Part shown: piece by piece, positions 11,931-23,523 of the stretch
Layout of the letters: each line of letters begins with the position of its first letter
Position numbering within the stretch: position 1 is the stretch's first letter
Source: a virus
IMG/VR virus record: IMGVR_UViG_3300027734_000295
Location: 1-25,162 of that record
Length of the DNA stretch: 25,162 nucleotides
Direction: 5' to 3' (one strand)
Notes under the pieces: model-generated
Seen by the model: only the letters and a program-made list of their open reading frames with translations
Database searches by the model: none
Told to the model about the DNA's origin: nothing
Translations under genes and position numbers: made by a program

Positions 11931-11955
11931 CGCCCTGACAGGTTAAGTATATCAT
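11931..11955 (-). promoter_or_regulatory. Late promoter element, copy d (before 314-residue protein)
   Basis: Minus strand: TGATATACT with the hexamer at element positions 5-10, identical in phase to the portal copy. It is followed at positions 19-25 by CAGGGCG, a two-base variant of CTGGGTG. The TGA of the extended -10 is also the stop codon of the epimerase gene. No TTGACA-like -35 is visible. Confidence 0.6.
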
Positions 11956-12908
11956 ATGGATTGTAACCATTTAATTAACTTAGTAAATCCCTGTTTAGGT
12001 GTAATTTCTTCTGCAGATCCATAAACTTTATCGTACTTACTGCCGTCTGTCCTGCGTGACATAACACCCATTGGCTTATCTAGCAAGTATTTAAATTTAT
12101 TTCGCAGTTCTAGATCGCCTACTATCTCACAGCACATCTCTGCTATTTGAGTCACGTTGACTTCGGTCTCAGAAGCCACGTTTACAGGCCCTTCATATTT
12201 ATCAGATGATAATATTTTGTATATCCGTTTAACTGCATCATCAATGTAAAGGAATACTCTTTGCTGAGTACCGTCACCCCAGATCTCAATTTCGCTACCA
12301 TCTTTAGATGCCTTTAGTACTTTAGTAGCTATAGCCGTAGGAAACTTCATGCGTTCACCTTCCATCTCTTGGTAGGCACCATATATAGTGTCAAAGATAC
12401 CAACTCTAGCACTAAACGGTGCACGTTCACAAAGTCGTAGCATCATAAGTTTTTCCCAACCGTAACTCATGTCGCAGTTTGCTGGATACATCATGTCTTC
12501 TGTTAATGTAGGACTATCACTCTTATCGTTTAAATGTATTGGATAAATACAAGCGGAAGCAGAAAAGAACATCCTTTTTATTCCATGTTCATCCATTGCT
12601 TTTAAAACGTTAAGGTTTATCTGATGACTATTGATGTACGGATAGTAATCATTGCCTCCGTGGAAGTAACCTACACCTCCCATATCTGCAGCTAGTTGCA
12701 CGACCCAATCTGAATAATATAAAGAGTTATATACGTCTCTATATTCACAAAGATCAGCTACAACGATTTCGTCTGCCTTGCCCCACATGCTTTCTCTGTA
12801 CTCTGGAAAGTCTTTATCAACTGCACGAACCCAGTGACCCTTTTTCTTAAGATAAGCAATTAAATTACAGCCAATAAATCCACCACCGCCTAGTACTGTT
12901 ACTCTCAT
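11952..12908 (-). CDS. GDP-mannose 3,5-epimerase-like NAD-dependent epimerase
   Basis: A 318-residue extended short-chain dehydrogenase. The NAD-binding site is G7-x-x-G10-x-x-G13. The active-site couple is Y149-x-x-x-K153 (YGWEK). It carries features of GDP-mannose 3,5-epimerases: AADMGGVGY at about 73-81, SASACIYP at 116-123 with Cys120, R-V-G-I-F-D-T-I-Y-G, E-G-E-R-M-K188-F-P, and EIWGDGTQQRVFLYIDDAV. In the plant enzyme the equivalent Cys and Lys are the acid/base pair that epimerises C3 and C5, giving GDP-L-galactose. Other GDP- or dTDP-sugar epimerases or reductases remain possible. The start overlaps the preceding glycosyltransferase gene by ATGA and has AAAGG upstream. It is the last gene of the sugar cassette. 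Confidence 0.78.
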   Translation of the reverse strand: MRVTVLGGGGFIGCNLIAYLKKKGHWVRAVDKDFPEYRESMWGKADEIVVADLCEYRDVYNSLYYSDWVVQLAADMGGVGYFHGGNDYYPYINSHQINLNVLKAMDEHGIKRMFFSASACIYPIHLNDKSDSPTLTEDMMYPANCDMSYGWEKLMMLRLCERAPFSARVGIFDTIYGAYQEMEGERMKFPTAIATKVLKASKDGSEIEIWGDGTQQRVFLYIDDAVKRIYKILSSDKYEGPVNVASETEVNVTQIAEMCCEIVGDLELRNKFKYLLDKPMGVMSRRTDGSKYDKVYGSAEEITPKQGFTKLIKWLQSI

Positions 12909-13570
12909 TTCATTACCTTTCGTAGTTTAGTTGCATCGTCCATTCTTTCGCCAGCCATACTAAAATATATATCAGCAGTCTTATCTTCGTTCATGCGTGC
13001 ATATTTTTCTCTGTAAGTATCGTCTAGTTCTGTTTTAGCAAAGTCTGGGTGCATATGCTCTGTTAATATGTCTATGAATATATGACGATCTACAAGCTTT
13101 GCAACGTCGTTTATCCAGGTATCAGAGTAGTCACCAGAGAATACTGGAGGGCATATATAACCTAACGCATTAAACCAGTTCTTATGTACGAAACCATGGG
13201 TACCGTATTTACCGTCGTGTACTGATCCATCTTTACCAAACACGTAGCCAATCTTGTCTTCTAGTTTATCAAAAGTGTTTATGACTTCTCTATCCCAGTG
13301 CTTAGTTCTAAAGACAATATCATCTCCGCAGTACATCATAATGTTATTAGATGCTACTTCTGCACATTTGTTCCACATATCACTTAGCACTATTCGTTCA
13401 CCTTTTATAATCTTCATTGGTACTTTAAGGTTCTTGTAAGTATTGTCATCTTCGTCTATGTACAAAACAAGTTCAATCTCCATTGGTTTTTGTGCAGTTC
13501 TGACAACTGAGTCCCATAATCGTTTAATGTTATGAGGTCTTTTTCTTGTAGGTATAAGTATGCTAATCAT
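12905..13570 (-). CDS. Glycosyltransferase, GT-A fold (GT2-like)
   Basis: A 221-residue protein from the ATG at 13570. It opens with the first strand of a GT-A domain (MISILIPTRKRP), then V-L-Y-I-D-E-D-D, and a metal-binding D-x-D-like motif G82-D83-D84 in N-N-I-M-M-Y-C-G-D-D-I-V-F. Later parts contain G-T-H-G-F-V and a C-terminal helical tail. It should transfer a sugar from a nucleotide donor, but the acceptor is unknown. An upstream in-frame ATG at 13600 would add MDKESPRMAP. I prefer 13570 because it makes an ATGA overlap with the dehydratase stop and begins exactly at strand one. Neither start has a convincing SD, which fits translational coupling. Confidence 0.78.
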   Translation of the reverse strand: MISILIPTRKRPHNIKRLWDSVVRTAQKPMEIELVLYIDEDDNTYKNLKVPMKIIKGERIVLSDMWNKCAEVASNNIMMYCGDDIVFRTKHWDREVINTFDKLEDKIGYVFGKDGSVHDGKYGTHGFVHKNWFNALGYICPPVFSGDYSDTWINDVAKLVDRHIFIDILTEHMHPDFAKTELDDTYREKYARMNEDKTADIYFSMAGERMDDATKLRKVMK

Positions 13571-14562
13571 AGGAGCCATTCTGGGTGATTCTTTGTCCAT
13601 TCTATGGTTGATTTCAGACTTTTTTCAAAGCTGAATGGGGCCACCCACCCCAATTCTTTAAGTTTAGTATTATCTAGTCCATAACGTAGGTCATGTCCAG
13701 GGCGTGATGAGTGAAAATCAACTAACTCATAATGAAGTTCTGCTCCATAAAATTTAGCTATTAATTCAGCCATCTCTAGGTTATTGACTTCTTTTTCACC
13801 AACGATATTAAAACGGTTTAGATCTTCTGCTGGGTATCGAGTAGGAACGACATTCTTTAACAAAAAACATAATGCGTCTGCTTGATTACGCGCATGTAGA
13901 TAATATCGAGATCCTGGTTGTCCGTCTTTGCTAGCGTGAATGGTAACTTTTTCTCCATTGGCAATTTGCTTCATGACTTTCGGTACAAATTTCTCAGGGT
14001 CCTGCATTTCTCCAATAATGTTCATGGTATTGGTGATAACTATTGGAAGGTTGTAGGTTCTCCAGTATGCGTAGCAAATAGCTTCTTGTGCGGCTTTTGA
14101 CGCTGAATACGGATTGCTTGGGCGGTAAGGTTCTCCTTCTTTGTGGTTGTGATCAGTAGCTGGCCCATATACTTCGTCCGTAGATATATGAATAAATTTC
14201 TTTACATTACTTTTTTTGAGCCACTCAAGCATAGTCAAAATAAGCGCAACATTATTCTCGGTAAATTCTCTAGGATCGGTTATTGAGCGGTCTACGTGGC
14301 TCTCTGACGCTATGTTAAGTACATAGTCAACATCTTTTAGTTTTTGTTCAAACTGCTCGCTAAAAGGAACAGTGAGATCATGCCTAATCAATGTTAAACG
14401 GGATAGATCTTGATCACTAAGTTGCTGCGTGATACGATCGGTTTTACCCATGTGCCTGAATGAATCAATACCGATAATCTTCCAGTCAGTCGTCGTTAAC
14501 ACGTGTCGCAGGGTATGACTACCCATAAAACCGCCAATACCAGTAATAAGAACTGTTTTCAT
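13567..14562 (-). CDS. rmlB: dTDP-glucose 4,6-dehydratase-like enzyme
   Basis: A 331-residue extended short-chain dehydrogenase. G8-x-x-G11-x-x-G14 binds NAD. SESHVDRSI (about 86-94), ISTDEVYG with T128-D129-E130, and PYSASKAAQE with Y152 and K156 reproduce the RmlB active site, in which Asp-Glu eliminates water and Tyr-Lys drives hydride transfer. Product in the family: dTDP-4-keto-6-deoxyglucose, precursor of rhamnose, fucosamine and related sugars. The partner genes RmlA, RmlC and RmlD are not in the window, so donor and later steps must come from the host or from unseen genes. It is joined by ATGA overlaps to glycosyltransferases on both sides, with GGAG upstream. GDP-mannose or UDP-sugar dehydratase activity is an alternative. 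Confidence 0.82.
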   Translation of the reverse strand: MKTVLITGIGGFMGSHTLRHVLTTTDWKIIGIDSFRHMGKTDRITQQLSDQDLSRLTLIRHDLTVPFSEQFEQKLKDVDYVLNIASESHVDRSITDPREFTENNVALILTMLEWLKKSNVKKFIHISTDEVYGPATDHNHKEGEPYRPSNPYSASKAAQEAICYAYWRTYNLPIVITNTMNIIGEMQDPEKFVPKVMKQIANGEKVTIHASKDGQPGSRYYLHARNQADALCFLLKNVVPTRYPAEDLNRFNIVGEKEVNNLEMAELIAKFYGAELHYELVDFHSSRPGHDLRYGLDNTKLKELGWVAPFSFEKSLKSTIEWTKNHPEWLL

Positions 14563-15272
14563 TCTAATGTCTCCAAATATTTAAGTTCGTCATCATAACC
14601 ACGGTCATACATAGTTTTCTTGTAATACTCAGGATAATCTTTCCAGTTCTCTTTAGTAGCAAATGTCCAGCTTAGGCGTTCGTCCATATGTCCTACGATC
14701 CAGCCATCGTTCTTTATCTCTCGAGATAGGCGACTATCTTCTTGTGACCTAGAACGTGAGCCTTCCCAAGGAGCTTCGTTATATTTAATGCCTGTTTCAT
14801 ATATTCCACGTTTAATTATATTTGGGCCACCTACACAACCAGGCCATTCAATTACTCCCATGCCGTTATAATAGTTTGGAGTTTTATTCTCTCCACCGTC
14901 AAAGTCTAAGCCAAGCTGACCTAGTCTATCTATATTCTTAAAATAATCAGCTGCTCGTAAATCCCAACCTTTCTCAAAGTGCATATCATTGTCGAGTCGC
15001 ATTAAGTGTGTTGCCTGAGGATATTCCTGTAATCCCTTTTGCCAGCCGATATTTGTAGCTTTTCCTGGATAATAGTTATCTGGATTAAGAATTACTTTAT
15101 TAGCTCTATTACGTGTTACAAGATTCGCAAGATATTCCTTAGTTCCATCGGTAGAGTTGTTGTCTACGATTACTAGATAGTATGGTGTTTGTATAGTAGC
15201 CCACAGACTACGTAGCGTCTTTTTAGTATAGTCTAAACGATTATACGTAATCATCGCTATAAGTAACTTCAT
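14559..15272 (-). CDS. Glycosyltransferase family 2-like protein
   Basis: A 237-residue protein with a classic GT2 start: M-K-L-L-I-A-M-I-T-Y-N-R at 1-12, L-V-I-V-D-N-N-S-T-D-G-T at 33-44, and a D94-N-D96 metal/nucleotide-binding motif in M-R-L-D-N-D-M. After this come P-G-C-V-G-G-P-N-I-I-K-R and Q-E-D-S-R-L-S-R, the usual acceptor-side loop with a candidate catalytic E-D pair. It is a soluble cytoplasmic transferase with no membrane segment. The acceptor cannot be read. The ATG overlaps the preceding glycosyltransferase stop as ATGA and no SD is seen, so it is probably translated by coupling. Confidence 0.85.
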   Translation of the reverse strand: MKLLIAMITYNRLDYTKKTLRSLWATIQTPYYLVIVDNNSTDGTKEYLANLVTRNRANKVILNPDNYYPGKATNIGWQKGLQEYPQATHLMRLDNDMHFEKGWDLRAADYFKNIDRLGQLGLDFDGGENKTPNYYNGMGVIEWPGCVGGPNIIKRGIYETGIKYNEAPWEGSRSRSQEDSRLSREIKNDGWIVGHMDERLSWTFATKENWKDYPEYYKKTMYDRGYDDELKYLETLE

Positions 15273-16132
15273 AGATCTATATCGTTATCGTCAATAATAG
15301 TGAATCTTTTAGCTGGATATGTAGCTAAGCCCTGTGCGACTAGGTTGTCTGCGTGCTTCTGACTAGTAGTTACAGCACCTGTAGGAGTGTCTACTGTAAC
15401 AAGTTTTGTTTTAGCGCCTAACGCAATAGGCTGAGACTGTATAGCTTTTAGTCTCTTGTTCTTTATAATCTTCTTCCACACTTCAATATTATGAGCACCG
15501 TTGTTGCTTCCAGCTTTACCTAAGTTAATAAGTTTTCTTTGAGCTAACTTAATAGGAAGTACTTGTATTATGATTCCAGCTTTCCAAAGTTTAATGCTAA
15601 ACGTTATATCGTGTAGACCATATCCGTCACCTGATTCATTTTTGCTTGCTGTTAGTTTAACTGATTCACCGTAATTTAAGATTGACCAGCGTATCTTATC
15701 TGTAAAATATGGTTCTCTTAAGTTCTCAAAGACTCTTCTTTTAACTAATAAGCAACCAGTACCAGCAAACACTACACGACCGCCTTTATCGTAGAACACA
15801 GAGCCACGGCCATCTTTTGTTACGGGATAGTCACAGGTAATGACGTTTACATCTGCATCTAACATCTCTTGCAATACATTCGGTGGTAATACCATATCGT
15901 CTTCTATGTACCAAAAGTGAGTTACCTCTTCGTCTATAATCGCTCTGTTCGTTGGCCTAATAAAGCACTCAGGTATAGGTTTACCGTGTGAGAAAAATAT
16001 CTTGTGTGGTATACCTTTTAAGTTTTGCAGTATTTCATCTGCAGTTTCAGAAAACATTAAACCACGTGATGGTAATATTACTCCTACTTTTATGCCTTTA
16101 GGTATCTTGTGCCAAGTTTTATTTAACGACAT
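15269..16132 (-). CDS. Glycosyltransferase-like protein, copy 2 of tandem pair
   Basis: A 287-residue protein from the ATG at 16132. It shares with its upstream neighbour the block V-I-L-P-S-R-G-L-M-F-S-E-T, the metal-binding E-D-D-M-V-L-P, Y-G-L-H-D, and QRKLINLGKAGSNNGAHNI. The EDD motif and strand-one pattern indicate a GT-A glycosyltransferase fold. The copy has its own C-terminal tail of about 60 residues (T-K-L-V-T-V-D-T-P-T-G-A...). An earlier ATG at 16150 would add six residues. I chose 16132 because GGGAG lies eight bases before it. The gene overlaps the end of the first copy by 14 bases. Donor and acceptor are unknown. Confidence 0.75.
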   Translation of the reverse strand: MSLNKTWHKIPKGIKVGVILPSRGLMFSETADEILQNLKGIPHKIFFSHGKPIPECFIRPTNRAIIDEEVTHFWYIEDDMVLPPNVLQEMLDADVNVITCDYPVTKDGRGSVFYDKGGRVVFAGTGCLLVKRRVFENLREPYFTDKIRWSILNYGESVKLTASKNESGDGYGLHDITFSIKLWKAGIIIQVLPIKLAQRKLINLGKAGSNNGAHNIEVWKKIIKNKRLKAIQSQPIALGAKTKLVTVDTPTGAVTTSQKHADNLVAQGLATYPAKRFTIIDDNDIDL

Positions 16133-16967
16133 TGAATTGTCTCCCATCATTTAAGAACGGTTGATCATCTTCATCATATGAGATAAAAGGCGGTATCTCT
16201 TCCCAGAACTTTACTTTCTTAACCCGATTAAGTGCACCTCTAAACAGCTTGGAGTTTTCAGGGTTGATCATACCAGACACAAGATCTCTCCCAACTACAG
16301 TGATCTCTTTAATATTATGTGCGCCCTTATTAGAATGAACTTCGCCTAGTTTAACTAACTTCCTTTGGCCTGCGGTACGTTCAAGTGGATAAATAGGTAC
16401 TCCAGAAGAGTAGAGCACCATGCCAAAGTTTAAATCATGTAGTCCGTAAAAGACTTTAGTTAGCTTACGCGGCCAGAAGTGTATCGTATCTTTATCGATA
16501 AACGGATCAAATGTACGGTCTGTACGCCATATAGGTTTTTCAAGTTGTTCTAGTATCGGTCGTGCTACGAGGATAAAACCAGTACCAGTCCAGAACGCAA
16601 AACCCTCAGGATCGTGTAGGCAAGTAGAGTCACCATCTTGTTGGAAAGGATAGTCAAGCGCTACGACTGGATATTGTGCTGCAAACATTTCTTTTAGTAT
16701 GCCTTTAGGTAAAATCATGTCATCTTCACAGAAAAGCACAGCATAAACACTAGGGTCTTTCAAAGCACGCTCTGTGGGCTCATTAAAGCACTCTGGGAGG
16801 CTTTTGGCGTGTGCCCAGTATATTTCGTAGTCCATGCCCTCAAGTTCGCTTAGAAGCTCTTCAAATGTCTCAGAGAACATTAAACCCCTTGAAGGTAAAA
16901 CGACAGCTAGTTTAGTTGCCGTCGGGGTGGTCGGCTGATGTTGTTTCGCCGATGTTTGGGTTTTCAT
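16119..16967 (-). CDS. Glycosyltransferase-like protein, copy 1 of tandem pair
   Basis: A 282-residue protein. After a Gln/Thr-rich N-terminal extension (1-18) comes V-V-L-P-S-R-G-L-M-F-S-E-T, then F-C-E81-D82-D83-M-I-L-P, F-W-T-G-T-G-F-I-L-V, V-F-Y-G-L-H-D-L-N-F-G-M, and G-Q-R-K-L-V-K-L-G-E-V-H-S-N-K-G-A-H-N-I. It is a GT-A-type fold with an E-D-D metal site, paralogous to the following gene. It overlaps the preceding small gene by 56 bases. The SD before this ATG is poor, but no later ATG precedes the conserved block, so the true start may be slightly different. Confidence 0.75.
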   Translation of the reverse strand: MKTQTSAKQHQPTTPTATKLAVVLPSRGLMFSETFEELLSELEGMDYEIYWAHAKSLPECFNEPTERALKDPSVYAVLFCEDDMILPKGILKEMFAAQYPVVALDYPFQQDGDSTCLHDPEGFAFWTGTGFILVARPILEQLEKPIWRTDRTFDPFIDKDTIHFWPRKLTKVFYGLHDLNFGMVLYSSGVPIYPLERTAGQRKLVKLGEVHSNKGAHNIKEITVVGRDLVSGMINPENSKLFRGALNRVKKVKFWEEIPPFISYDEDDQPFLNDGRQFNVVK

Positions 16968-17259
16968 CTTTTAAGTCTTTTATTAGTTTATTCAACATAA
17001 GTACAGCGCCAATAGTTTGTTGTGCTTCATTTCGGTGCTGTGCCATATTTGTGTAGCCCTTATCTTTTAGTGTAGGGTTTTCGTCTTCTTGTAAACGTGC
17101 TGCATGCAACATATCTACACGTGCTCGCCAGTGTAGTGACTTAACTTGGTTGAGTTGATCTTCCAAGAATGCCATCTTCTGTCTTGGGTGCAGCTCTATT
17201 TCTTTAGGTATTTTATATAGTTTTACGTTTGCTTTATCTAATACTAGAGGGTCTATCAT
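16912..17259 (-). CDS. Small helical protein heading the sugar cassette
   Basis: A 115-residue protein from the ATG at 17259, preceded by AAAGGA at good spacing. An upstream ATG at 17313 in the same frame would add a hydrophobic stretch, but it reads through the likely promoter region and has no SD, so I reject it. Residues about 24-95 are helical and charged (RQKMAFLEDQLNQVKSLHW, then A-R-L-Q-E-D-E-N), with an acidic polar C-terminus. I recognise no family. It is the first gene after the UUCG terminator, so it begins the transcript of the glycosyltransferase cassette. Confidence 0.6.
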   Translation of the reverse strand: MIDPLVLDKANVKLYKIPKEIELHPRQKMAFLEDQLNQVKSLHWRARVDMLHAARLQEDENPTLKDKGYTNMAQHRNEAQQTIGAVLMLNKLIKDLKDENPNIGETTSADHPDGN

Positions 17260-17350: not shown

Positions 17351-17374
17351 AAAAAGAACCCCGAAGGGTTCCTT
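17351..17374 (-). terminator. Rho-independent terminator after the capsid gene
   Basis: Read on the minus strand: GAACCC, loop TTCG, GGGTTC, then a run of six T. The stem is six perfect pairs, extended by a G-T and two A-T pairs, closed by the very stable C(UUCG)G tetraloop. It starts 22 bases after the capsid stop codon, so it should end or reduce the head-gene transcript before the sugar cassette. Confidence 0.9.
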
Positions 17375-17395: not shown

Positions 17396-18280
17396 TTAGG
17401 ATTTAACAACAAAACCGAAGTTGCTTCGTAGTGCGTTGTGTCCGTAAAGAACATCAACAGTTACGAGCCATCCAAGGTGTTCCTGCTTGTACTGCGCTTG
17501 AGTACGAGGTTGCATCTGCATAGCAATTGCCCATGCTTCCTTGTGGAAGAATAGGTGATTGTATTCATCAGTAGCTGTGTCTAGATAAACCAAGTTTTGG
17601 CTCATGTATACGTCAGCACCGTAGATGCGTCCGATTTTACCGTTAGCGATAGAGTTAGCGTCACCACCAACACCTAAAGCGTCATAACGAACATACTTGT
17701 CGATTGCAAGCATTTCTGCTTCACCCTTAGGGTGTACAACTAGAGCACGGTCAGAACGTGGAGCTTTGTTTTCACTTAGGTATCGGTTAACAGTCAAGAT
17801 GAGGTTGTCATTTAGAGCTGTTCCGTATGCACCGTAAGCTTGGCTCGCAGTTTTCCATGTAGTTGTCATGTTTGTAGCTAGGTCGCTGTCAATTTTCTCT
17901 GAGATTGCGTAAGCCGCAGCTTGTGTGTAATCGCTTCGAAGATCAAAAGCAGACTGTACTTTTACTAGGTCTTCAACAATGAATGAGCTTTCGTAGTGCT
18001 TGTTCAATGTGATAGTTGTTTTTGTTTCTGTGTTGTAGTTTAGCGTAACTACAGTGTTTTGAGCTTTTAGGTTCGCGCTAATTGCAGATACGTTTGGAAT
18101 TTCCAAAGTTTGTCCGCTAGATTGAACGTCAGCGTCATAATGCTTAATGAGTGGAAGAAGAACTAGATTGCTCTTTACGAACATTAATACTTCTTTTGAC
18201 CATACATTTGGGCGGAATACGCTACCAGCTGTTGCACCGATGTTTACGTTGCCAGAGTTATATGCACCTGTTGTTGCCAT
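17396..18280 (-). CDS. Major capsid protein (HK97-like fold)
   Basis: A 294-residue protein. It starts with a flexible Gly/Asn/Ala-rich arm, then V-W-S-K-E-V-L-M-F-V-K-S-N-L-V-L-L-P-L-I (about 26-45), G-Q-T-L-E-I-P-N-V (E-loop-like strand), Y-E-S-S-F-I-V-E-D-L-V-K, then R-A-L-V-V-H-P-K-G-E-A-E-M-L, G-K-I-G-R-I-Y-G-A-D-V-Y-M-S-Q-N and a final G-W-L-V-T-V-D-V-L-Y-G-H-N-A-L-R. This order (spine helix, P-domain, capsid turn near I-Y-G-A-D-V, final A-domain strand) is that of podovirus major capsid proteins. It follows the scaffold gene by 26 bases. The SD is weak (GAAAG). An intrinsic terminator follows. Confidence 0.9.
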   Translation of the reverse strand: MATTGAYNSGNVNIGATAGSVFRPNVWSKEVLMFVKSNLVLLPLIKHYDADVQSSGQTLEIPNVSAISANLKAQNTVVTLNYNTETKTTITLNKHYESSFIVEDLVKVQSAFDLRSDYTQAAAYAISEKIDSDLATNMTTTWKTASQAYGAYGTALNDNLILTVNRYLSENKAPRSDRALVVHPKGEAEMLAIDKYVRYDALGVGGDANSIANGKIGRIYGADVYMSQNLVYLDTATDEYNHLFFHKEAWAIAMQMQPRTQAQYKQEHLGWLVTVDVLYGHNALRSNFGFVVKS

Positions 18281-18306: not shown

Positions 18307-19083
18307 TTATTTCCCTGAGATAGCTTTATTGATTGCAGAATAATTCTTTTGAAACCATTCTTGGTCATTACGGTCTATTAATTCATAAACGTTTTGGTTG
18401 CTTATGACATTGGATTCGTAAGAACCTGCATTCGTTGCTGCCGCCAGTGGAGGTACGGCTTGTTGTTTCTGTGCAAGATTAGTAAGTGCTTCTCGACCAC
18501 CTTCCCGTTTTAAGTCTGCTTCTCGCGTAGGATCATTCCTAGCTAGGGCATATAAAACATCAAGATCATTCTGTAAGTGGGGTCGTTGTACTACAATTTC
18601 CGCCATCTTGCCTTCAAATTCTCTTGCTTCGGGTGTTGACTCCCAAAAACTATTCACTTTATTTTGAATTGTTAATTGATTCACCTGTACAGCTAGCTGA
18701 TCTACAGCACTGTCACCAGTATAGTCAATAAGCGGTTGATCCATCACAGCTGTGTTGTATTCTCGCGCTTTAAGGGTTGCCTCGTGCATTTTCTTTTCGG
18801 CTTCACGATACATGCTGGCCATCTTAACAGGATCTTCTAAAGGAAGTCCTTTCTTTTCTGCCCATGACTTTATATCGTCACCGTCGGCTTGTGTTGGTGC
18901 GGTTGCATCTTCAACGGCCGTGTCTGCACTCGGTTGGTCGTCTTGAGATGTGATAGGTTGTAGGTCTGGAGTTCCATTAGCATCCGTAGATATAATTTGC
19001 TCGTTTCCTTCTATCTTTACCGCCTCTGTTGGTTGTGTGGGTTGTGCTGAAACAGCGCCCTCCGTAGGGGTTGTGGTATCCAT
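18307..19083 (-). CDS. Capsid assembly scaffolding protein
   Basis: A 258-residue acidic protein. Residues 1-75 are disordered and Thr/Gln/Asp/Pro-rich; 75-215 are helical and charged (M-Y-R-E-A-E-K-K-M-H-E-A-T-L-K, then V-D-Q-L-A-V-Q-V-N-Q-L-T-I-Q-N-K). The C-terminus is a short helix ending in N-K-A-I-S-G-K. Composition, size and the slot between portal and capsid genes are those of phage scaffolds, which direct procapsid assembly and then leave. A fused protease is not seen. The start has AGGAG five to six bases upstream, in a leader that contains a hairpin and a weak copy of the late promoter element. Confidence 0.78.
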   Translation of the reverse strand: MDTTTPTEGAVSAQPTQPTEAVKIEGNEQIISTDANGTPDLQPITSQDDQPSADTAVEDATAPTQADGDDIKSWAEKKGLPLEDPVKMASMYREAEKKMHEATLKAREYNTAVMDQPLIDYTGDSAVDQLAVQVNQLTIQNKVNSFWESTPEAREFEGKMAEIVVQRPHLQNDLDVLYALARNDPTREADLKREGGREALTNLAQKQQAVPPLAAATNAGSYESNVISNQNVYELIDRNDQEWFQKNYSAINKAISGK

Positions 19084-19147: not shown

Positions 19148-19381
19148 TTAATTGTCTTTATCCCCCTCATGCTTAGGTACGACTGCTAAAAATTGTAAAT
19201 GATCTATTGCCTTTATAACACCTCCTGCCTCTCGAAGCAAGCCAAAAGCGGTTTCAGCAGTTTTTGCCTCTGAAGCGTCATCTTGTAATCGTTGCTTAAC
19301 TATGTTTAATTCGTTTAAAAGTTGCTTACCTAATGGTGAAGAGAATAAACTCTTATATTGGTTAGACCAATTACTGTCCAC
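19148..19381 (-). CDS. Small helical protein between portal and scaffold
   Basis: A 77-residue protein from a GTG at 19381, which overlaps the portal stop by 11 bases. GGCGGACAAG precedes it. An in-frame ATG at 19417 would add twelve residues encoded within the Gly/Gln repeat of the portal tail, which I consider less likely. The body is helical: L-F-S-S-P-L-G-K-Q-L-L-N-E-L-N-I-V-K-Q-R-L, then T-A-E-T-A-F-G-L-L-R-E-A-G-G-V-I-K-A-I-D-H-L. I recall similar short conserved genes between portal and scaffold in other podovirus-like genomes, without an assigned function. Confidence 0.6.
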   Translation of the reverse strand: MDSNWSNQYKSLFSSPLGKQLLNELNIVKQRLQDDASEAKTAETAFGLLREAGGVIKAIDHLQFLAVVPKHEGDKDN

Positions 19382-21269
19382 CTTGTCCGCCTTGTGGCAT
19401 CTGTCCACCTTGAGCACCGCTCATTCCTTGCATACCTTGCATTGGCTGAGGAGGTGTAGTTGGGACTGGAGCAATTTGCTCACCATTAAGAGCCTGGTCT
19501 GACATTTGCTGAGTAGCTCTAGTCTCCATTGCGCCTTCGTGTGTAACAGAAGCTTGATAGCCTGATTCTTCTTCCATTTGTGCCTGGATATCTGGCGGTG
19601 CGTCTTTATAGTTAATAATTGTCTTAGGTTCACCGCTTCCAGCCTGCTTACTGCCTTGTTTGCCCTGAGCTTCTTGCATTAACTCTTCTTCGGTTTTAAC
19701 TAATGTCTCTACTTCTTTAGGATCTAGATTAAATCCTTTTTGGATAATGTATCTTGTAAGAGTAGCTTGATCTATGTAAGGGTTTCCAAGCATAGCGCTA
19801 TATAACTCTTTAAGATCACGCATCTTGAATCGTTTTTCGTCTTCTAGCGTTGATTTAAGCTTAATACGTGGCTCATAATCACCCTTAAACATATTAGGAT
19901 CAAATTCTTTCCAATTAATACCCTTATCACCGATTACACGGAACATTACTGGTGCTGTTACGTACAGTTGTACAAGCTGGAAGACTAGTTTTGCTAGTTG
20001 GTAGTATCCGCCATTCTCTAACATAGAAATAATTAGTCCAAATCGGCGTCCTGCACTGTTCTGCTGAGCTTTTACCTCAGTAGCAGTGGTTTCTCCACTC
20101 ATTGCTACACCTTTGAGTATTTCATCTATAGCAGTTGCTTCACGGATTTCATTCTTAATGTTAGTTCGCTCGTTAAAGACGTTTGAAGGAATAATAGGTT
20201 TCTGTACAGCCTGGTATGAACCTGGTTTAAATGGATATACGTTACCTGTTGCGGAACGCATCTTATCTAAATAGCTAGAATACTGTGGGTCAAGTTCCAT
20301 TTCAGGATCAATTGCCCATGATACAGCATCTATGTTCTGGTTAGTAAGGTCGTTTAAAAGTTCCTGGTGCTTAGCGATTGGCTCAATAACTGACTTACCG
20401 TAAAGTTGTGACTCATCTGGAGAGAAAGAATCAATTATATAAGAGAACATTCCAGTCGGGTTCTTATAGCCTAAGAATTGTTGACGTTGTTTGTAGTAGT
20501 TAATGTTTTCATAGATTACTTGCTCTCTGTTTCCAACGTAGATGACCTTATCACGTGTCTCGTAGCAGATAACTTCAATCTGGTTCTCGTCTTGAGGCAT
20601 CTCAGCATTGTTGCCCATTTCACTGTCTTTGTCTTGCTTGTCTGTTTCTTCACCTGAATCAAACTTGCCTAGTTTATCAAGGTTCTTGTATTTAGGTACG
20701 AACTCGCCAGTCTCTGGATCAATTACTTTTTCTTTTTCTAGTTCTTTTTTGTTAGCTAGGAATCTATGGCCCATATAGCCAGCGTTATCTCTGTTAAAGA
20801 ATGTTGCAGCTGGATCACAGAAGAAGTCACGAAGAGGGATTATATCAAGACAAGGATGGTCAATGTTCCAATATACTTTTAGTACGCTTGTACCTAGTTT
20901 AAACATTGCACGGTTGTGTTGTATGAGCTTAGGTGTCCACTGCCCTATGTCCCAGTAGTAAGACAGAAGAGCGTTTAATACTTCAGTGTTAACATCTTGT
21001 TCTGGCTTGGTAGCCATGTATTCAACTACAGGCTTATCTCCACTAGTTGCAGAGACCATTGTTTCTACTAAAGAGTATGACATTGGTACGAAAGTATCAG
21101 AGATACCGTTATATCCAACGTATACACGTTCTGAATTGTATAATTTGTTCATGTTCTGCCACTTATCGTGCCATGAACCAGAGCGATAGCTCCATGATGC
21201 GTTAAAGGCACTTACTACCTTATTTACTGTGTCGTCTGTATTCTTAGTTGTAGTTGTTTTTTTAATCAT
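19371..21269 (-). CDS. Portal protein
   Basis: A 632-residue protein from the ATG at 21269. Features of podovirus portals: early W-H-D-K-W-Q-N-M-N-K-L-Y-N, G-I-S-D-T-F-V-P-M-S-Y-S-L-V-E-T (wing), T-S-V-L-K-V-Y-W-N, P-L-R-D-F-F-C-D-P-A-A-T, then S-Q-L-Y-G-K-S-V-I-E-P-I-A-K-H-Q-E-L-L-N-D-L-T-N-Q-N (stem/crown region), and G-E-T-T-A-T-E-V-K-A-Q-Q-N-S-A. The dodecameric ring is the DNA entry and exit port and docks the terminase. The last 80 residues are low-complexity Gln/Met/Gly/Pro. A GTG at 21284 would add five residues but lies inside the conserved CTGGGTG of the promoter element, so I prefer 21269. No good SD is seen. Confidence 0.92.
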   Translation of the reverse strand: MIKKTTTTKNTDDTVNKVVSAFNASWSYRSGSWHDKWQNMNKLYNSERVYVGYNGISDTFVPMSYSLVETMVSATSGDKPVVEYMATKPEQDVNTEVLNALLSYYWDIGQWTPKLIQHNRAMFKLGTSVLKVYWNIDHPCLDIIPLRDFFCDPAATFFNRDNAGYMGHRFLANKKELEKEKVIDPETGEFVPKYKNLDKLGKFDSGEETDKQDKDSEMGNNAEMPQDENQIEVICYETRDKVIYVGNREQVIYENINYYKQRQQFLGYKNPTGMFSYIIDSFSPDESQLYGKSVIEPIAKHQELLNDLTNQNIDAVSWAIDPEMELDPQYSSYLDKMRSATGNVYPFKPGSYQAVQKPIIPSNVFNERTNIKNEIREATAIDEILKGVAMSGETTATEVKAQQNSAGRRFGLIISMLENGGYYQLAKLVFQLVQLYVTAPVMFRVIGDKGINWKEFDPNMFKGDYEPRIKLKSTLEDEKRFKMRDLKELYSAMLGNPYIDQATLTRYIIQKGFNLDPKEVETLVKTEEELMQEAQGKQGSKQAGSGEPKTIINYKDAPPDIQAQMEEESGYQASVTHEGAMETRATQQMSDQALNGEQIAPVPTTPPQPMQGMQGMSGAQGGQMPQGGQGGQ

Positions 21270-21281
21270 CAGTATAAGTTG

Positions 21282-21306
21282 CACCCAGCTGTTTTCAGTA
21301 TATCAC
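21282..21306 (-). promoter_or_regulatory. Late promoter element, copy b (before portal)
   Basis: Minus strand: TGATATACT, an extended -10 with TATACT at element positions 5-10, then CTGGGTG at positions 19-25, 12 bases before the portal ATG. It lies just after the terminase stop. The bases 16-18 upstream of the hexamer are only A/T, without a TTGACA-like box. Confidence 0.7.
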
Positions 21307-21317
21307 TTATTAAAAAA

Positions 21318-22655
21318 TTATATATATTTCATCCGCCTATTAAATACGCCCTCATTGACTTTAATCTCAGGCATTTGAGCTGGTCGTTGGTTAACTAGCG
21401 CGTATCTTAAGCAGTCATAAAGATGATCTTCAGCTCTGGTATCAACGTCTTCTGTTTTGTGCATGTCGTAAGGTAATGATGGAAGAGTTCTTATTAAGTT
21501 AACGCAACTAGAGAATACTTGTAGGTTTGGTTTGTTATCTGGAGCAATAGCTAAAGATTCATGTACGGCGTTCATACCGTTCATGCGGTCATTATTTGCT
21601 GGCTGAAAGATTAGTCCTGCTTTCTGAAAGATGATTGCTACGCTTTCACCTGTCTCTACTGATCCGTGCTGTTTCCATAGGGAAGGATCTGCCCACTTAG
21701 TAACTACTAGTTCTTCTCCAGACAAATCATTTATTGTTTGTGCCTGTTGACTAGCTGCCATTGCGTGAGGATAGAATTCCCTGTAGACGTATATTCTTTC
21801 ATTGGCTGGATCTCTAGCAAGCCATAGGCAAGCAGCGTATGTGTTGTAGCCCCAGTCATATGCTAACCACTTAGTCCAGTGCTTTGGTATAGGGAATGGA
21901 TCAACTACGTGTCTGTCTCTTTCCCACTCAGTAAATACCTGTCCGCTAAATATATCCCAGTCTCCCTTTAAGAGTGCTCGCTTTAAATCTGGATCAGAGA
22001 TACTTTCAAGCTGTTTAGAGTAAGACTTTCTGAAAGCTTCTATCGGGTGATCGTCTACTTTAGCTGGAATAAACTGTCTAGTGTTGCCTGCTTTATCTGT
22101 GTAGATAGTTTCTGGAGTTATTATGTCAATGAAATAAGCTTTAACCCAGCCGTGGCCTACGTTGCCAGGGTTTGTTGCGGCCATTACTTTAAGTGGATGC
22201 TCTCCTGTAGAACGTACACGAGTCTTTAGGTATTCGTATTCGTCCTGGGTAAAGTGAGTTAACTCGTCCATTAGTAAAAGGTGAATCTCTGCGGACTGGT
22301 ATCTAAACATATCTCCAGGGTTCTCTAGATAAGCTAGTTGAATGATTGAGCCGTTTCTTAAAACAAAGGTTCTGTCTTGTGAGTTGTATTTCATTCCGCC
22401 TGAGTCTATATACTGGGAAGCCTGTTTATAAATTTCTGGTACGATAGATTGCTTTAACTCTGGGATAGTACGACGAAACATATAAACACGTGACTTGGGC
22501 CACTGCAGTGCAAAGGTGATTGCTTCTGCCACAATAGCGGTAGTCTTTCCTCCACCTGCAGCTCCACCGTAAAGTGTTTCAAATGCAGTACTAGTATGGA
22601 ATTTAGTTTGCCGATCAGATGGTTCGTAATCTGGCACTTTAATTTGATGGGTCAT
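21318..22655 (-). CDS. terL: Terminase large subunit
   Basis: A 445-residue DNA-packaging motor. ATPase: Walker A G-G-A-A-G-G-G-K37-T38, adenine-binding Q-x-K-F-H near 16-20, Walker B L-L-L-M-D130-E131, coupling motif A-T-N-P-G at 160-164. Nuclease (RNase H-like): D267-W-G-Y, A-D323-P-S, and a last acidic site in A-E-D-H-L-Y-D414-C-L-R-Y. It cuts concatemeric DNA and pumps it through the portal, which is the next gene. The start has AGGAAGG upstream and is two bases from the preceding stop. All motifs are intact. No clear small subunit lies beside it. Confidence 0.97.
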   Translation of the reverse strand: MTHQIKVPDYEPSDRQTKFHTSTAFETLYGGAAGGGKTTAIVAEAITFALQWPKSRVYMFRRTIPELKQSIVPEIYKQASQYIDSGGMKYNSQDRTFVLRNGSIIQLAYLENPGDMFRYQSAEIHLLLMDELTHFTQDEYEYLKTRVRSTGEHPLKVMAATNPGNVGHGWVKAYFIDIITPETIYTDKAGNTRQFIPAKVDDHPIEAFRKSYSKQLESISDPDLKRALLKGDWDIFSGQVFTEWERDRHVVDPFPIPKHWTKWLAYDWGYNTYAACLWLARDPANERIYVYREFYPHAMAASQQAQTINDLSGEELVVTKWADPSLWKQHGSVETGESVAIIFQKAGLIFQPANNDRMNGMNAVHESLAIAPDNKPNLQVFSSCVNLIRTLPSLPYDMHKTEDVDTRAEDHLYDCLRYALVNQRPAQMPEIKVNEGVFNRRMKYI

Positions 22656-22656
22656 A

Positions 22657-23523
22657 TTACCTTCCTAGTTGAGCTTGTAGGGCAGCACCACGTAGTTGGT
22701 CTCGCTGTACGATGACAGGTACATCTTTAATACCTAGTTCACGCATAGCTTGAAGACGGTGTTTGCCATCTTCTAATAACGTCTGCCCAGTTTTTTTATT
22801 TAATGAAACAATTAAAGGATCTATACTGTTTGAATTATTAGGATCCATACCTTGTTTAAGTATTATGTTCTTCCAATAATCTACGCGTGCTCTTTGCAAT
22901 GGAGCTGCTTTAACCCCGCCGCCATATTCAATGTTCTTAGCTTGTACGAGATTAACGTCACCACTTAAGAACCCACGTTTTACTTGGTCGGCTAATTCAG
23001 GACTGGTTCGAGGGTCTCTTACAATAACTTCTCTTCTTCCTCCAGGCAGACTTATATAGCCGCCTTCGCCTAATGGGTTTGCCTTAGCGTTTAAATACAT
23101 TGCTCTTCCAAGTGGAGTTGCAGCACCTAATCCAGCTCCTAACGCAGCACCTTGTAAAAAGCCTTGTGGAGTTATTCTTTGGTTCTGTGCAGTACTGCTG
23201 GCTAGATTCATTGCTCCGCCAAGTAAACCGCCTTGTGCCGCTCCAAAGAGTGTTTGTTTAGCTAGTGTTGGTGCAGCTAAGCTTGCTTTAGCCATAGGCC
23301 CAGCTAACGCAGTTAAGCCTACCTGTGCGGTATTACCGATAATATTTTTAAGTATAGTTCCTTGATCATTAGTTCCAAAGACTCTTCTCTGTATATCATC
23401 TATAGGTTTTCCTTGTAGTTCTCTGTAGATAGCTTTAGGTGTATAGGCTAGTCCAGTGCCCATCTGTGCAAAAGGCTGGGCTATTCCTCTACCAACATTT
23501 AGAAGTGTTTGTGCTAAATTCAT
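22657..23523 (-). CDS. Glycine-zipper protein with C-terminal ParB/sulfiredoxin-like domain
   Basis: A 288-residue protein. The N-terminus (about 1-45) is polar, with F-A-Q-M-G-T-G-L-A-Y-T-P-K-A-I-Y-R. Residues about 62-130 are Ala/Gly/Leu-rich with repeated GxxxG (G-L-L-G-G-A-M, A-L-G-A-G-L-G-A-A) and could insert in membrane. Residues about 210-275 match the ParB/Srx fold: I-D-P-L-I-V-S-L near 235, L-L-E-D-G-K-H-R-L-Q-A-M-R-E-L-G-I-K near 250-267, V-P-V-I-V. In phages this domain occurs in DNA-binding, nuclease or modifying proteins. The start overlaps the preceding small gene by ATGA, so a local promoter is unnecessary. Possible roles are packaging helper or ejected virion protein, and neither is proven. 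Confidence 0.65.
   Translation of the reverse strand: MNLAQTLLNVGRGIAQPFAQMGTGLAYTPKAIYRELQGKPIDDIQRRVFGTNDQGTILKNIIGNTAQVGLTALAGPMAKASLAAPTLAKQTLFGAAQGGLLGGAMNLASSTAQNQRITPQGFLQGAALGAGLGAATPLGRAMYLNAKANPLGEGGYISLPGGRREVIVRDPRTSPELADQVKRGFLSGDVNLVQAKNIEYGGGVKAAPLQRARVDYWKNIILKQGMDPNNSNSIDPLIVSLNKKTGQTLLEDGKHRLQAMRELGIKDVPVIVQRDQLRGAALQAQLGR

Follow-up and report, generated by a model that had tools for sequence, protein, structure and literature searches.

We analysed a 25,162-base stretch of viral DNA (IMG/VR record IMGVR_UViG_3300027734_000295, positions 1 to 25,162; hereafter the window), which belongs to a T7-like phage, carries late genes on its minus strand and had no DNA-level match among GenBank phages. 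Behind the gene for the major capsid protein (MCP) lies a cassette of six genes at 11952-16967, encoding two nucleotide-sugar enzymes (EPI1 and DEH) and four glycosyltransferases (GTa to GTd). We propose, with a probability of roughly 60%, that this cassette glycosylates the phage's own virion, with MCP as the likeliest acceptor, a conserved core being combined with exchangeable outer sugars. A first-pass annotation of the window had offered two options, glycosylation of a virion protein or remodelling of the host surface. The virion option proved the better supported, because the core glycosyltransferase genes are linked to the MCP gene by where they occur, where they lie and how they diverge; the cassette also encodes no evident membrane proteins.

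We fetched 71 loci carrying MCP relatives, plus more distant ones, and the comparison spanned about 90 contigs. Presence was counted only in loci with enough sequence downstream of MCP; one GTd and five GTc genes missed by the open reading frame (ORF) parser were confirmed separately and added. The comparison revealed a two-layered cassette. GTd, GTc and GTb form a fixed core, found behind MCP in every sufficiently long locus (49/49, 45/45 and 38/38, respectively), whereas DEH, GTa and EPI1 form an exchangeable periphery (6/29, 8/27 and 6/24). The six-gene set that the first-pass annotation proposed to look for in relatives thus recurred throughout as to its core and in a minority as to its distal genes. 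The periphery of relatives instead holds other deoxy- and amino-sugar genes. Among 101 periphery ORFs, NCBIfam models recognized ten UDP-GlcNAc 2-epimerases, eight FnlA/PseB-type dehydratases, seven RmlB-type enzymes, three UDP-sugar dehydrogenases, one RmlA and one RfbH, and Pfam added methyltransferases, C-methyltransferases, FdtA-like proteins and further glycosyltransferases.

The association also held when the search started from the glycosyltransferase. GTd alone retrieved 60 loci, nearly all from phages already known via MCP; three contigs were new, two of which carried MCP while the third starts 0.4 kb before GTd. In remote relatives, whose MCPs scored as low as 68 bits against the profile (L217, L220 and L222-L224), a divergent MCP is immediately followed by just one glycosyltransferase gene of this family, suggesting that GTd and GTc arose by duplication.

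We then compared tree distances across 38 deduplicated genomes (35 for GTc, 31 for GTb). Divergence of the core followed that of MCP (r = 0.81 for GTd, 0.73 for GTc and 0.69 for GTb), in contrast to the scaffold-position gene g258 (r = 0.35) and portal (r = 0.29), which correlated with each other (r = 0.77). The MCP-GTd correlation stayed at 0.66-0.90 in 60% subsets, and its partial r given portal was 0.80; g11 and GTd correlated at 0.32 (n = 16). Quartet agreement was 0.67 for MCP-GTd, 0.52 for MCP-portal and 0.83 for portal-scaffold position, with 0.33 expected by chance. One mosaic locus, L209 (1529-7580), combines TerL and portal near those of the window (portal distance 0.52) with distant MCP and GTd (1.41 and 1.66), which suggests joint replacement of the latter two.

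These data also bear on a different acceptor. The cassette might glycosylate another virion protein, such as a tail, fibre or small head protein, and stand behind MCP only for late expression; it does lie between MCP and the tail genes, where mosaicism of late genes is normal. However, glycosyltransferase divergence follows MCP and not portal, the scaffold-position gene or g11, and relatives with a single glycosyltransferase keep it directly behind MCP, making this explanation rather unlikely.

Several observations weigh against MCP as the glycan acceptor. L164 has MCP but no such glycosyltransferase within its 23 kb fragment, and L172 and L221 carry the gene away from MCP. One resolved quartet in three differs between the MCP and GTd trees. 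To control for mere physical linkage, we considered the 11 genomes in which MCP and GTd are at least 900 bases apart; there the MCP-GTd correlation weakened to 0.44, while MCP-g258 reached 0.77. Co-transfer of neighbouring late genes can also yield such linkage. Finally, the glycan, its acceptor and the enzyme activities are predictions, and the starting core enzyme, the residue accepting the glycan, its sugars and its benefit are our inferences.

The core enzymes belong to two groups. GTc and GTd matched no Pfam or NCBIfam model but are mutual homologues (hhalign probability 100), and by sequence they form a paralogous family that neither database models. Neither protein found a match by tblastn among GenBank phages, and a GTd profile gave no meaningful match among solved structures. 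The predicted GTd model (predicted local distance difference test score, 85.4) was closest to LH3 (Z = 12.8) and Mnn9 (Z = 12.0), with all top rows of GT-A type, which assigns GTd to the GT-A fold with good confidence; GTc probably shares this fold by homology. An acidic, DxD-like metal-binding motif, E81-D82-D83, is invariant in 39 GTd sequences, and in 37 GTc sequences E83 and D85 are conserved and D84 nearly so. GTb scored 53.0 bits against Pfam Glycos_transf_2, above the gathering cut-off of 23.3. We dropped the top rank of LH3, a lysine glycosyltransferase, as a hint to the acceptor, since Z values among GT-A proteins lie too close together. A search for the acceptor site through conserved Ser, Thr or Asn residues of MCP was likewise abandoned, there being too many invariant residues and only two MCPs from glycosyltransferase-poor genomes. 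Three records hold irregular family members: in L160 (9199-9901) GTd is seemingly split across two frames, by sequencing error or as a broken copy; in L172 (record G391) the glycosyltransferase gene has an HNH-endonuclease-like ORF as its neighbour and lies on the opposite strand; and in a genome search the family matches in G391 and in G397, the record of L222, read through in-frame stops.

EPI1 and DEH belong to the Epimerase/GDP_Man_Dehyd family of extended short-chain dehydrogenase nucleotide-sugar enzymes. DEH retains the catalytic Asp-Glu pair (STDEVYG, residues 127-133) and YxxxK (152), and scored 247.8 bits against the RmlB equivalog TIGR01181, under its cut-off of 365.1; it is RmlB-like, a family-level match that leaves the substrate unassigned. 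The nearest solved relative of EPI1 is GDP-mannose 3,5-epimerase (PDB 2c59), with which its catalytic Cys (SACIYP at 118), YxxxK at 149 and a Lys align, and no NCBIfam equivalog model reached its cut-off. GTa, the third peripheral product, scored 25.5 bits against Glycos_transf_2, also above the gathering cut-off. The family placement in the first-pass annotation holds, whereas its GDP and dTDP labels are those of nearest relatives only, both enzymes falling under the NCBIfam equivalog cut-offs. It had further argued from two donor types to a glycan of several sugars. The GDP/dTDP assignment behind this argument is tentative, but more than one donor sugar in the window is plausible because EPI1 and DEH occur independently: several relatives have EPI1 with GTa and without DEH, and others have DEH without EPI1. 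For the same reason, we disfavoured a single pathway in which DEH and EPI1 make one sugar. The window DEH is 97% identical (dS 0.25) to that of L003 (13775-14845), while the adjoining GTd and GTc differ from their L003 counterparts with dS above 1.3, a pattern that suggests recent exchange of DEH as a single gene.

Under the capsid-glycan model, the genes would be expressed late, and GTd, its paralogue GTc or both would attach the first sugar to MCP in the cytoplasm. GTc and GTb would then lengthen the glycan. DEH may supply a 4-keto-6-deoxy sugar and EPI1 an epimerised one as outer residues; GTa would probably transfer the sugar made by EPI1. Since variation is confined to the outer part, the phage would most likely gain a changeable virion surface, with which it could adsorb to its host or to surfaces in the environment, or evade factors that bind the capsid.

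A second possibility is that late in infection the cassette alters the host surface, so that superinfection is blocked or release is eased, or that it comprises auxiliary metabolic genes for host adhesion. Nucleotide-sugar genes of groundwater Patescibacteriota phages have been interpreted in the latter way (PMC12911398), sugar genes of groundwater viruses have been read as auxiliary metabolism (PMC10980836), and the diversity of sugar genes in the clade resembles that of O-antigen loci. However, we found in the cassette no evident flippase, polymerase, membrane transferase of the Gtr or Wzx/Wzy type, GtrB/GtrC-like protein or multi-pass membrane protein. A simple hydropathy test detected no clear hydrophobic or transmembrane segment in the six products, and none of 126 ORFs from 32 variable regions in relatives had two or more transmembrane segments by the same test. 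Nor does a host-surface function predict co-divergence with MCP. We consider this alternative unlikely.

Two further explanations found less room. Phage glycosyltransferases can glycosylate hypermodified bases, and those of the cassette might modify phage DNA; six enzymes, exchangeable sugar genes and linkage to MCP fit this poorly. Moreover, no thymidylate-synthase/hydroxymethylase family gene was present in eight related records of 31-42 kb, which are possibly incomplete (the control worked), and although other base-modifying routes exist, we regard DNA modification as very unlikely. The frequent gain and loss of distal genes might instead mark the cassette genes as passengers without coherent function. 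This is extremely improbable given the universal core, invariant motifs, overlapping genes and strong purifying selection (dN/dS 0.04-0.10 in genes with unsaturated dS); all six genes are intact.

Virion glycosylation by phage enzymes has been reported before. In mycobacteriophage Che8 and its cluster F1 relatives, glycans on the major capsid protein depend on phage genes (Freeman et al. 2023, as cited in PMC11256854). As far as that account goes, Che8 resembles the window phage, which is known from its genes alone, in encoding its own glycosyltransferases, with an HK97-fold capsid as the acceptor in Che8 and as the proposed acceptor here. The same account places the glycosyltransferase genes of the F1 phage Maravista near the 3' end of the genome, whereas those of the window follow the MCP gene; also unlike the Che8 type, the core reported here is of a family that Pfam does not model. 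The Patescibacteriota phages encode the same kinds of enzymes (rmlB, rmlD, gmd, galE) and are linked to the same broad host group, but against the host-adhesion reading given to them (PMC12911398), genomic linkage in the window clade points to the virion. Protein A197 of Sulfolobus turreted icosahedral virus (STIV; PDB 2c0n), a viral GT-A protein, shares its fold with the GTd model (Z = 11.9), although STIV infects archaea, the two showed no sequence relationship and similar scores came from many other GT-A proteins. The outgroup Pf-WMP3 (Saffermanviridae) has the same T7-like order of terminase, portal (gp8), scaffold (gp9), MCP (gp10, 28% identical) and tail (gp11), but no glycosyltransferase gene separates its MCP gene from its tail genes, which makes the cassette look like an insertion.

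New in this work are the glycosyltransferase family linked to MCP, its universal occurrence across a large uncultured clade and the division of the cassette into core and periphery. Sugar genes of uncultured phages are usually classed as host auxiliary metabolism; here, the core is tied to the capsid gene. This yields a testable rule, that glycosyltransferases following and co-diverging with MCP decorate the virion. If true, it would define a new family of protein-glycosylating enzymes, make capsid glycans predictable from sequence and call for another look at many viral genes annotated as auxiliary metabolic. A broader picture is possible, though we advance it tentatively: a large uncultured T7-like clade, possibly infecting ultrasmall Saccharibacteria, may have dedicated capsid glycosylation, in which the MCP-linked family (one gene, later duplicated) primes the shell and rapidly exchanged sugar genes give each phage its own capsid glycan, an O-antigen-like variation on the virus particle.

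The organization of the locus largely agreed with the first-pass annotation (Table 1). All six ORFs were recovered on the minus strand, between MCP and the tail and internal virion genes, with the claimed count of two NDP-sugar (nucleoside diphosphate sugar) enzymes and four GT-A-type glycosyltransferases. Its mostly ATGA junctions were confirmed as 4-base overlaps at EPI1/GTa (12905-12908), DEH/GTb (14559-14562) and GTb/GTc (15269-15272). A fourth (13567-13570) arises if GTa starts at its Met-11, to which homologue lengths of 221-225 amino acids point; GTc and GTd overlap by 14 or 32 bases. The window runs in the order TerL, portal, g258, MCP and cassette, followed by tail and internal virion genes, and the predicted MCP structure (modest confidence) matches HK97-fold capsids. 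The cassette had also been credited with its own terminator and start region. A terminator-like hairpin does follow MCP, but the first gene past it is g133, which that annotation omitted, and we found no convincing sigma-70 promoter. A gene of about 70-126 amino acids occupies the position of g133, just ahead of GTd, in nearly all relatives examined, and its divergence moderately follows that of MCP and GTd (r = 0.53, n = 25).

Table 1 Features of the window discussed in the text.
Feature	Position	Strand	Description	Basis
TerL	21318-22655	-		
Portal	19371-21284	-		
g258	18307-19083	-	Scaffold-position gene adjoining MCP	
MCP	17396-18280	-	Major capsid protein, HK97 fold, proposed acceptor	Pfam Phage_capsid_2, PHROG major head protein
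Hairpin	17353-17374	-	Terminator-like, after MCP and ahead of the cassette	9-pair stem and T run
g133	16912-17259	-	Small protein, first gene past the terminator	
GTd	16119-16967	-	GT-A-fold glycosyltransferase, conserved core	Invariant E81-D82-D83 and H177-D178; predicted GT-A fold
GTc	15269-16150 (start may be 16132)	-	GTd paralogue, conserved core	hhalign to GTd
GTb	14559-15272	-	Family 2 glycosyltransferase, conserved core	PF00535, E = 5e-14
DEH	13567-14562	-	NDP-hexose 4,6-dehydratase (RmlB-like), optional	TIGR01181, STDEVYG and YxxxK
GTa	12905-13600 (start probably 13570)	-	Family 2 glycosyltransferase, optional	PF00535, phrog_14945
EPI1	11952-12908	-	Nucleotide-sugar epimerase, optional, occurs with GTa	PDB 2c59, E = 2e-41

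Regarding the host, we searched one genome per species of about 85,000 for GTd relatives; one Candidatus Saccharibacteria metagenome-assembled genome (MAG), with two contigs, and one other bacterial bin were the only ones to hold any. Among 380 genomes of the phylum of that MAG, GTd relatives occurred only in the same MAG. The two contigs, L109 (JACDEK010000007) and L110 (JACDEK010000001), represent two different phages of the clade binned together. A Saccharibacteria host is therefore a tentative assignment, resting on binning. In a search for DNA or spacer matches across the 380 genomes, only the phage contig of the MAG matched well. The short hits were scattered, and where three genomes hit the window its sequence is T-rich and low in complexity; we therefore did not accept these hits as spacers.

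Two other genes of the window were recorded. The gene upstream of TerL (22657-23523) weakly matches ParB-like proteins in the C-terminal region, and an HNH endonuclease gene (280-747) lies amid the structural genes.

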